Of a stretch of DNA of 64,000 nucleotides, positions 58,648 to 60,381 are shown piece after piece. The DNA is from Micromonospora tulbaghiae. GTDB lineage: Bacteria; Actinomycetota; Actinomycetes; Mycobacteriales; Micromonosporaceae. Under the pieces are notes generated by a model. The model did no database searches. It saw nothing but the letters and a program-made list of their open reading frames with translations, and was not told the DNA's origin. The translations under genes and the position numbers were made by a program. The DNA is taken from positions 248,001 to 312,000 of the forward strand of contig NZ_FMCQ01000001.1 of NCBI RefSeq assembly GCF_900091605.1, in the 5' to 3' direction. How positions within the stretch are numbered: position 1 is the stretch's first letter; every line of letters starts with the position of its first letter.

Positions 58648-59214
58648 ATGCGGGACGAGATCCGGGCACTGGTCGACGAGCTGACACCCGGTGACGAGCA
58701 GGAGGCGCGGCACCGGGAGGCGGCGCTGGCCTGGCTCGCCGCCACGGAGGACATCTTCCGCCGGGCCAAGCCGCGTACGCCGTCGCCGCATCTGGTCGCG
58801 TACTTCCTGCTCCGCGACCCGGCCGACGGCGCGGTGCTGCTGGTCGACCACCGTCTCGCGGGCATGTGGCTGCCGAGCGGCGGTCACGTCGAGCCCGGCG
58901 AGCACCCGGCCGACACGGTGCGCCGCGAGCTGCGGGAGGAGCTGGGCGTGGCGGCGGTCTTCGCGCCGCCGTTCGGCGAGCGCCCGGCGTTCCTCACCGT
59001 CACCGAGACGGTCGGCCCGCCGGAGCAGCGGCACACCGACGTCAGCCTCTGGTACGTGCTGTCCGCCCACCGTGACCAGCGGTTCACGCCCGATCCGGTG
59101 GAGTTCGCCGGCATCCGCTGGTGGACGACGGCCGAGGTGGCCGAGGCGCCGGCCGGCACGATCGAGCCGCACCTGGGCCGGATGCTGACCAAACTGGCGG
59201 CAGCGACGCCTTGA
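58648..59214 (+). CDS. NUDIX hydrolase
   Basis: 188 residues from ATG 58648 (GTG 58618 in frame would add ten). The Nudix box is complete: GGHVEPGEHPADTVRRELRE followed by ELGV (about 78-100), giving the G-x5-E-x7-R-E-x2-E-E-x-G pattern with all metal-binding Glu. The N-terminal helical extension (RDEIRALVDELTPGDEQEAR) is typical of a actinomycete subgroup. It hydrolyses a nucleoside-diphosphate-linked substrate, not identified. Close to the LysR gene but separated by 32 bp and no clear joint role. Confidence 0.9.
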   Translation: MRDEIRALVDELTPGDEQEARHREAALAWLAATEDIFRRAKPRTPSPHLVAYFLLRDPADGAVLLVDHRLAGMWLPSGGHVEPGEHPADTVRRELREELGVAAVFAPPFGERPAFLTVTETVGPPEQRHTDVSLWYVLSAHRDQRFTPDPVEFAGIRWWTTAEVAEAPAGTIEPHLGRMLTKLAAATP

Positions 59215-59247
59215 CCCGTCCCCTGCGGCAAGGCCCAGCGTGATCAG

Positions 59248-59268
59248 TGCCGGTCGCGGTGACCGGCA
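59248..59268. promoter_or_regulatory. MerR-type operator candidate
   Basis: TGCCGGTC (59248-59255) and GACCGGCA (59261-59268) are perfect 8-bp arms around 5 bp, 22 bp before the MerR-PP2C start. The length suits autoregulation by a MerR protein. Confidence 0.45.
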
Positions 59269-59290
59269 CGAGGAGCGCGAGGGAGGCACG

Positions 59291-60343
59291 GTGCGACTGC
59301 TGACCATCGGCGCGTTCGCCCGGGCGGCCGGCCTGAGCGCCAAGGCGTTGCGCATCTACGACGACTGCGGGCTGCTGCCCCCGGCCGCGGTGGACCCGCA
59401 CTCGGGTTACCGCTACTACGCGCCGGAGCAGCTGGACCGGGCACGGCTGATCGCCGGGCTGCGCCGGGCCGGGATGCCGCTGGCCGAGATCCGTACCGTC
59501 TGCGGCCTGCCGCCCGCTGCCGCCGCCGAGGCGCTCGACGCCTGGTGGCGGCGGGTCAGCGCGGACACCGCGGCGCGCGGCCGGGCCGTCGCGCTCCTCG
59601 TCGACAGGCTCAGCGAGAGGGGCACCACCATGTCCGAGACCACCTTCCGGTACGCGGCGCGCTGCGAGACCGGCACGGTCCGCGACTCCAACGAGGACAC
59701 CGCGTACGCGAGCGCGTCGCTGCTCGCGGTCGCCGACGGCGTACGCGGTCCGGCCGGGTCCACCGCCAGCGCGGAGGCGGTGGACGCGCTGCGGCCGTTG
59801 GAGCAGGCGGACACGCCGCAGGCCGATCTGCTCGCCGCGCTGGCGGACGCGGTGACCGGGGCCGACCGGGCGGTACGCGCGCACGCCACCGACACCGACC
59901 AGCCCGCCACCACGCTCACCGCGCTCGTGCGGCGCGGCACCCGGCTCGCGCTGGTGCACGTCGGGGACAGCCGGGCGTACCTGCTGCGCGGCGGTGAGCT
60001 GTCCCGGCTGACCCAGGACCACACGTACGTGCAGACGCTCGTCGACCAGGGGCGGCTCACGCCGGCCGAGGCCGGGGCGCATCCGCAGCGGGCGCTGCTG
60101 GCCCGGGCGCTCGGCGCGGGCGCGGACGTGGAGGCGGACCTGGCGCTGCGTACGGCGCTGCCCGGAGACCGCTACCTGCTCTGCTCCGACGGCCTTTCGG
60201 CAGTGGTGGAGCCGGGCGCGCTGCACGCCGCGCTGGCGGAGGCGGACGACCCGGAGGCCGCCGTCGAGCGCCTGGTCGAGCTGGCGTACGCGGCCGGCGC
60301 GCCGGACAACATCGCCTGCGTGGTCGCCGATCTGGCGGCGTGA
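59291..60343 (+). CDS. MerR regulator fused to a PP2C protein phosphatase domain
   Basis: 350 residues from GTG 59291, GGGAGG 4-5 nt upstream. Residues 1-110: MerR HTH (IGAFARAAGLSAKALRIYDDCGLLPP and SGYRYYAPEQLDRARLIAGLRRAGMPLAEI). Residues about 118-350: PP2C domain resembling PstP, with VRDSNEDTAYA, VADGVRGPAG, TTLTALV, HVGDSRAYLLRGG, LCSDGLSAVV and GAPDNIACVV. The metal-binding Asp residues (VADG, CSDG, PDN) are kept, so activity is plausible, but the GMGG loop is GVRG. No membrane segment. It may be a DNA-binding phosphatase whose activity depends on a ligand or a kinase state; no precedent is claimed. A hairpin follows. Confidence 0.88.
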   Translation: MRLLTIGAFARAAGLSAKALRIYDDCGLLPPAAVDPHSGYRYYAPEQLDRARLIAGLRRAGMPLAEIRTVCGLPPAAAAEALDAWWRRVSADTAARGRAVALLVDRLSERGTTMSETTFRYAARCETGTVRDSNEDTAYASASLLAVADGVRGPAGSTASAEAVDALRPLEQADTPQADLLAALADAVTGADRAVRAHATDTDQPATTLTALVRRGTRLALVHVGDSRAYLLRGGELSRLTQDHTYVQTLVDQGRLTPAEAGAHPQRALLARALGAGADVEADLALRTALPGDRYLLCSDGLSAVVEPGALHAALAEADDPEAAVERLVELAYAAGAPDNIACVVADLAA

Positions 60344-60350
60344 TCCACCG

Positions 60351-60381
60351 CGACCCGGGTCGGGATGTCCGACCCGGGTCG
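60351..60381 (+). terminator. Terminator after the MerR-PP2C gene
   Basis: A perfect 13-bp stem, CGACCCGGGTCGG (60351-60363) with its complement at 60369-60381, loop of 5 nt. Each arm is itself palindromic (GACCCGGGTC), so it might also be a tandem operator for the next gene. Confidence 0.65.

Follow-up and report, generated by a model that had tools for sequence, protein, structure and literature searches.

A MerR–PP2C fusion gene of Micromonospora tulbaghiae with a conserved internal start codon, probably a self-regulated gene of TipA-like build

Promoters under the control of MerR-family regulators typically have an over-long spacer of 19-20 bp that carries a dyad. In the MerR-GyrI regulators of the BmrR type, the MerR module is joined to a small-molecule-binding domain. 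TipA of Streptomyces lividans is known to give two products, TipAL and TipAS: this MerR gene is autoregulated, and its two start codons yield a long regulator and a free effector domain (PMC7762955). The pairing of MerR with PP2C has already been catalogued in a 2025 survey of 3,573 bacterial PP2C sequences, where MerR is among the accessory domains drawn; the legend concerned (Fig 5) gives only the domain arrangement, without promoter, internal start or mechanism (PMC12088040). In the open-licence literature searched, no study of a MerR-PP2C protein was found beyond this survey, no report of internal starts in MerR fusions besides tipA, and no account of a two-product, self-regulated layout with an enzyme as effector.

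The gene described here lies in a stretch of 64,000 nucleotides of Micromonospora tulbaghiae DNA, referred to as the window. Its features, with the evidence for each in brackets, are the following:

59211-59241, + strand: predicted MerR-type promoter/operator (-35 TTGACC at 59211-59216, 19-bp spacer at 59217-59235, -10 CAGCGT at 59236-59241)
59247-59269, + strand: perfect 9-bp inverted repeat with a 5-nt loop in the predicted 5' leader (sequence, pairing in relatives, RNA fold)
59279-59286, + strand: Shine-Dalgarno-like GAGGGAGG for the full-length start (sequence; duplex energy -11.6 kcal/mol)
59291-60343, + strand: full-length MerR-PP2C ORF of 350 aa (GTG start at 59291, stop at 60341-60343)
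59303-59503, + strand: MerR_1 winged helix-turn-helix, residues 5-71 (Pfam PF13411, E 9.3e-16; AlphaFold2 model)
59513-59611, + strand: long helix, residues 75-107, at the place of the MerR dimerisation helix (AlphaFold2 model)
59615-59622, + strand: internal Shine-Dalgarno-like GAGAGGGG, with the rare Arg codon AGG (duplex energy, codon comparison)
59630-59632, + strand: internal ATG start codon (M114), within the linker of low model confidence (ATG/GTG in 114 distinct sequences)
59630-60343, + strand: predicted short product, a free PP2C of 237 aa, residues 114-350 (conserved internal start)
59642-60337, + strand: PP2C phosphatase domain, residues 118-349 (alignment and structure match to PstP)

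The ORF is organised as the earlier note had described it, with a MerR helix-turn-helix and a PP2C domain on a single chain: a Pfam scan of the 350-aa protein finds both MerR_1 and PP2C_2 (residues 140-315, E 2.1e-10), each scoring above its curated cut-off. The span originally assigned to the gene, 59248-60381, does contain the ORF but runs beyond the stop at 60343. In the AlphaFold2 model, a monomer built from 26 aligned sequences with a mean pLDDT of 89, the winged helix is followed by the long helix of residues 75-107, a low-confidence linker and the PP2C fold. The lowest-confidence stretch, with pLDDT below 50, comprises linker residues 111-114, directly before the first PP2C strand. The protein thus has the N-terminal winged helix-turn-helix of the MerR family (PF13411) and, in the monomer model, the long helix that follows it, which by analogy with the family would serve in dimerisation.

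The fusion is genuine and not a sequencing artefact. MerR and PP2C are continuous in one ORF in 131 of 133 loci examined (114 distinct sequences), the criterion being a frame that stays open from the beginning of MerR through residue 150 or beyond; these loci, which include the window, were picked for a match to the full-length query over both parts, with the broken locus added, and so do not measure prevalence. Two loci (L052, L200) end at contig ends, and two (L054, L201) lose the PP2C frame further on. Both exceptions (L051, L202) have the same sequence, from Micromonospora sp. KC723, in which the two halves lie in different frames, as would be expected if two separate genes had been joined elsewhere by error. 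However, KC723 lacks the DNA for about residues 42-118, so that the gene is split and the internal start is gone, and the gap reads as a deletion. With reading through both parts in 131 of 133 loci, drawn from many assemblies, a sequencing error or frameshift joining two genes is ruled out, its probability being negligible. The KC723 locus (L051:2400-3500, L202) still has the promoter and the hairpin.

The hosts of the fusion span Micromonospora, Actinoplanes, Streptosporangiaceae, Pseudonocardiaceae and Streptomyces. A scan of GTDB species genomes returned 149 relatives; among the best 80 of these, 42 (L009-L050) match both parts, from Micromonospora, Actinoplanes, Haloechinothrix, Amycolatopsis, Sphaerisporangium, Planotetraspora, Nonomuraea and Streptomyces, and the nearest named relative is M. 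chalcea, with 95% identity. Within the genus, where 13 candidates were scored per genome, 84 of 151 genomes have a match at E<=1e-110, one that takes in the MerR part in 83 of them. Across the phylum the gene is patchy, since a match to both parts is found in at least 5 of 396 genomes, its own included, with at most five candidates scored in each.

In a tree with 33 other PP2Cs, the fused PP2Cs (34 rows) all fall on one side of a branch with support of 96/98, and a single fusion event is therefore likely. The Pseudonocardiaceae copies (L022, L023) sit within the clade of Micromonospora copies, and the Actinoplanes copies (L034-L036) group with those of Streptosporangiaceae, which suggests horizontal transfer of the cassette. 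The survey of the fusion and its neighbours that had been proposed earlier was also carried through: in 41 loci, in 37 of which gene calling recovered the fusion itself, no neighbour gene or operon partner holds a constant place across genera. The next neighbour clusters cover at most 14 of 41 loci and are mostly confined to one genus. Those found in more than one genus, a LysR-type family (11 of 41) and a few small ones, occupy varying positions.

The C-terminal part is closely related to PstP. Residues 108-348 match M. tuberculosis PstP (1TXO/2CM1) with E 1.1e-58 (phmmer), the PP2C domains are about half-identical, and the modelled PP2C fold superposes on 1TXO with a TM-score of 0.92 over the PstP chain. 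Residues R131, N134, D136, D149, G150, D226, D300, D339 and N340 align with PstP, among whose residues we take these to include the catalytic Arg and the metal-binding Asp residues. R131, N134, D136, D149 and G150 are kept in all 114 distinct sequences, D226 in 112 of the 112 that reach it, D300 in 111 of 112 and D339 in 110 of 111; the exceptions are locus L199 at D300 and the C-terminally scrambled locus L201. By alignment of the 114 sequences, the domain thus retains the catalytic Arg and metal-binding Asp residues of PP2C (PPM) phosphatases. The NCBIfam equivalog model of the PstP/Stp1 group, NF033484, scores 175.4 bits, which is below its cut-off of 230. PstP differs from the present protein in having no MerR part and in its DGMGGH-type loop, which here reads DGVRGP and is shortened in the Streptomyces rows; furthermore, the fused PP2Cs form a clade of their own. 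The window also encodes a PstP-like PP2C, from about 27713 onward. Of the motifs that had been noted as shared with it, GDSRAYLLR and HPQR are exact, while the counterpart of GDRYLLCSDGL there is GDRYLICSDGL.

Upstream of the gene, the predicted promoter at 59211-59241 overlaps the stop codon of a NUDIX gene. The consensus of the relatives at this place is TTGACC, 19 bp and a CAGC(A/G)T-like -10, and its spacer carries the dyad CTTnnCC...GGnnAAG. The best TTGACC/CAGCAT-like pair has a 19-bp spacer in 102 of the 114 distinct sequences, in a search that tried spacers of 15-22 bp without a shuffle control and on a pattern that had also been spotted by eye. In these 102 sequences, the geometry is that of the over-long-spacer promoters of the MerR family. 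An operator pattern derived from this site and its relatives matches the 6.49-Mb genome once, at the gene's own site, with up to 3 mismatches allowed; no further operator-like site is present in the genome within that limit, beyond which more divergent operators would be missed. The single match lends no support to a wide set of directly controlled promoters. Because a MerR-type promoter stands before the gene itself and matches once in the genome, the gene is probably self-regulating via its own 19-bp-spacer promoter, without another strong target; to judge from the promoter geometry, the protein would bind there.

Downstream of this promoter lies the inverted repeat, with arms GTGCCGGTC (59247-59255) and GACCGGCAC (59261-59269) around the loop GCGGT. 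The earlier note had reported it as a perfect 8-bp repeat; it is present and perfect, with a length of 9 bp. Counting the window, 79 of 114 leaders contain an inverted repeat with a score of at least 7, where mononucleotide shuffles would predict 3.1. A common register, in which 6 or more of the 10 pairs are preserved, is shared by 78 of 112 leaders; among their 37 distinct stems there are both-sided substitutions, for example T-A to C-G in pair two. These rows were selected by pairing, which favours covariation. The RNA fold of 59247-59300 has an energy of -27 kcal/mol (z -2.8). Since the repeat begins 5 bp past the -10, the mRNA would have it as its first hairpin, and it is read here as a covarying leader hairpin, which may act as RNA or as a second DNA site. 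The repeat had also been put forward as the element that controls the gene, a role that passes to the promoter: the 19-bp-spacer element at 59211-59241 is more widely conserved, and the repeat is downstream of the -10. Among L037-L050 and L091-L094, the repeat occurs in the tested register in only one Streptomyces locus (L040) and in L091. The repeat as the main MerR operator was set aside.

At the seam between the two domains, a start codon with its own Shine-Dalgarno sequence is conserved. The seam codon is ATG in 103 of the 114 distinct sequences, GTG in 11 and never another codon, while GTG makes up 42% of Val codons elsewhere in these ORFs. On a quick tree, the ATG/GTG state changes at least 7 times, and well-supported branches force 6 of these changes. 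Where two candidate starts were present, the one with the stronger Shine-Dalgarno was taken, by which GTG was preferred over a nearby ATG in three Streptosporangiaceae rows. When in-frame positions are ranked by predicted pairing with the 16S tail, the seam Shine-Dalgarno falls within the best 5% for 97 of 114 sequences and within the best 10% for 112 of 114, with a median rank of 0.6%. Of 294 other in-frame ATGs, 1.7% attain the best 5%. The 114 sequences are related, and these counts are not independent events. In locus L052 the seam Shine-Dalgarno was not found (rank 0.29). An in-frame ATG or GTG in the linker is not rare on its own, and the weight lies in the joint occurrence of start codon, position and Shine-Dalgarno.

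The codon usage at the seam points in the same direction. Arg codons at -6 to -3 are AGG or AGA in 59 of 64 cases, compared with 94 of 3581 elsewhere in the same ORFs; for Gly the bias toward GGG or GGA is weaker (69 of 136, compared with 1075 of 3109). After thinning to below 85% nucleotide identity (41 sequences), AGG/AGA accounts for 24 of 27 Arg codons at the seam and for 39 of 1323 elsewhere, with 30 of 41 seams still in the best 5%; below 80% identity (24 sequences), the corresponding values are 15 of 18 and 23 of 783, with 18 of 24 seams in the best 5%. The Shine-Dalgarno is spelt with different codons in different clades (AGAGGGGC, GAAGGGGGC, AGGAAGGAC, AGCAAGGAG). A synonymous-codon null gave p<0.05 in 21 of 44 sequences, with a median p of 0.09, three rows having used a wrong downstream ATG, and the key Arg codon shows little synonymous change (12.5th percentile), though not exceptionally little. 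The start lies within about one residue of the beginning of the window's PstP. Between 110 and 129 residues precede it in the relatives, and selection seems to act on the long form as well, since the linker frame stays open despite this varying length.

An internal ATG at 59631, opening a separate phosphatase, had been named earlier as what would overturn the fusion. Such a start does exist, at 59630-59632, and relatives keep it; it accompanies the fusion and does not speak against it. Since the seam ATG/GTG and its Shine-Dalgarno are conserved in relatives, the gene probably makes both MerR-PP2C and a free phosphatase.

The same layout of a MerR winged helix with a C-terminal effector is shared with TipA, while the effector is a PP2C phosphatase domain here and the drug-binding TipAS domain there. 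The gene is not a TipA, because the TipAS domain PF07739 is absent from the Pfam scan of the 350-aa protein, though it may work like one. In a control set of TipA-type genes, the seam start is in the best 5% for 10 of 16 parsed genes (of 30 loci), and in 8 of the 10 it is an ATG that falls within residues 104-109 of the stretch read; this control is looser, as it takes the best of several ATG/GTG candidates per gene within residues 80-150. The seam start of the TipA-type gene of the same genome (L236) lies outside the best 5%.

The sequence itself shows that the two domains are fused, that the catalytic residues are present, what geometry the promoter has, and that the internal start and its Shine-Dalgarno are conserved. 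Dimer formation, autoregulation, synthesis of the short form, enzymatic activity, the signal and the substrates are added by inference. On this footing, we consider it quite probable that this is a stand-alone, self-regulated two-product gene of tipA-like build, in which an enzyme has taken the place of the drug-binding domain. A dimer of full-length MerR-PP2C would bind the stretched 19-bp-spacer promoter of its own gene and so control expression, and ribosomes would also initiate at the seam ATG/GTG to give a free, soluble, PstP-like Ser/Thr phosphatase. Sensing and self-regulation would then fall to the long form, and phosphatase work to the short one. In the long form, occupancy of the PP2C domain by a metal, a phosphoprotein or a ligand would alter the MerR dimer, which would let the cell tune the amount of free phosphatase; Mn, a phosphoprotein or another ligand as the signal is a guess. 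PstP is membrane-bound, unlike the short form, which would act on soluble substrates.

Several other explanations bear on the same observations. The gene might have full-length MerR-PP2C as its single product, with the internal ATG and Shine-Dalgarno being either a relic of the captured phosphatase gene or a pause signal for domain folding. A relic would fit the closeness of the internal Met to the beginning of PstP, and could have been inherited throughout the single clade of fused PP2Cs; the unexceptional synonymous conservation at the site and the mixed outcome of the synonymous-codon null are likewise in its favour. Yet a relic should decay, whereas the Shine-Dalgarno has been rewritten in different codons beside a codon that is only ever ATG or GTG, in a linker whose length and residues vary across genera at about 55% protein identity, and a pausing signal has no need of a start codon. 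We therefore regard a single product as unlikely, although it is the strongest of these alternatives.

It is less likely again that the PP2C domain is no longer an enzyme and serves the MerR part as a ligand or metal sensor. The change of the DGMGGH-type loop to DGVRGP, and its shortening in Streptomyces, could be taken as signs of such a loss, but the near-invariance of the aligned catalytic residues and the conserved start for a free PP2C speak for an enzyme. Equally improbable in our estimate is the earlier reading, in which the phosphatase sits on DNA at target promoters and removes phosphate from transcription partners there. This reading is compatible with the two-product explanation and agrees with the presence of both parts on one chain in nearly all loci. 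The only operator-like genome site within 3 mismatches is, however, the gene's own promoter, and a free form would not need DNA.

MerR modules of this kind also occur with other effectors. In the same genome, a MerR module is fused to a domain resembling DnaN, the DNA polymerase III beta subunit (L005:1480-2688; G000:C13:516432-517637). This effector matches PF02767 and resembles the replication clamp; the gene thus has the same MerR module and a similar seam-start layout, with a clamp-like effector instead of PP2C. Within the genus, 58 of 61 genomes have a match to it; across the phylum, only 2 of 119 do so at E<=1e-40, its own genome included. At its seam, an ATG (17) or GTG (6) stands six bases past GAGGAG in 23 of 24 parsed genes (of 30 loci), and of these 23 starts 13 are in the best 5% and all are in the best 10%. 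Because GAG is also the usual Glu codon, this case leans more on the ATG/GTG interchange. BmrR-type regulators share the same MerR module, as in L069 and L083, which have GyrI-like effectors; unlike the PP2C fusion, their effector is no enzyme. GyrI-like MerR proteins were set aside as a further case: the seam start is strong in L069 and L078 and not in L083-L088. A Humibacillus MAG (L066:5001-6050) has the same MerR module with Clp_N repeats and a seam ATG with a weak Shine-Dalgarno (rank 0.22), and in Hamadaea tsunoensis (L067:5001-5807) MerR is followed by a C-terminal part without a Pfam match at E<=0.001.

A wider reading, which we put forward tentatively and at slightly less than even chances, is that TipA is no special case and that actinobacterial MerR modules are a general device: placed before a complete effector gene whose start is kept, the module would let one self-regulated gene give a DNA-binding sensor form and a free working form. 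Enzymes such as the PP2C phosphatase and a replication-clamp-like DnaN-like protein would be controlled in this way. If the proposal for the PP2C fusion is true, a Ser/Thr phosphatase sets its own supply through a DNA-binding form of itself, and dephosphorylation and transcription are linked directly within one gene. The two-product trick of TipA would then be a more general design with a simple sequence signature, and annotation of the long ORF only would miss a set of free effector proteins.
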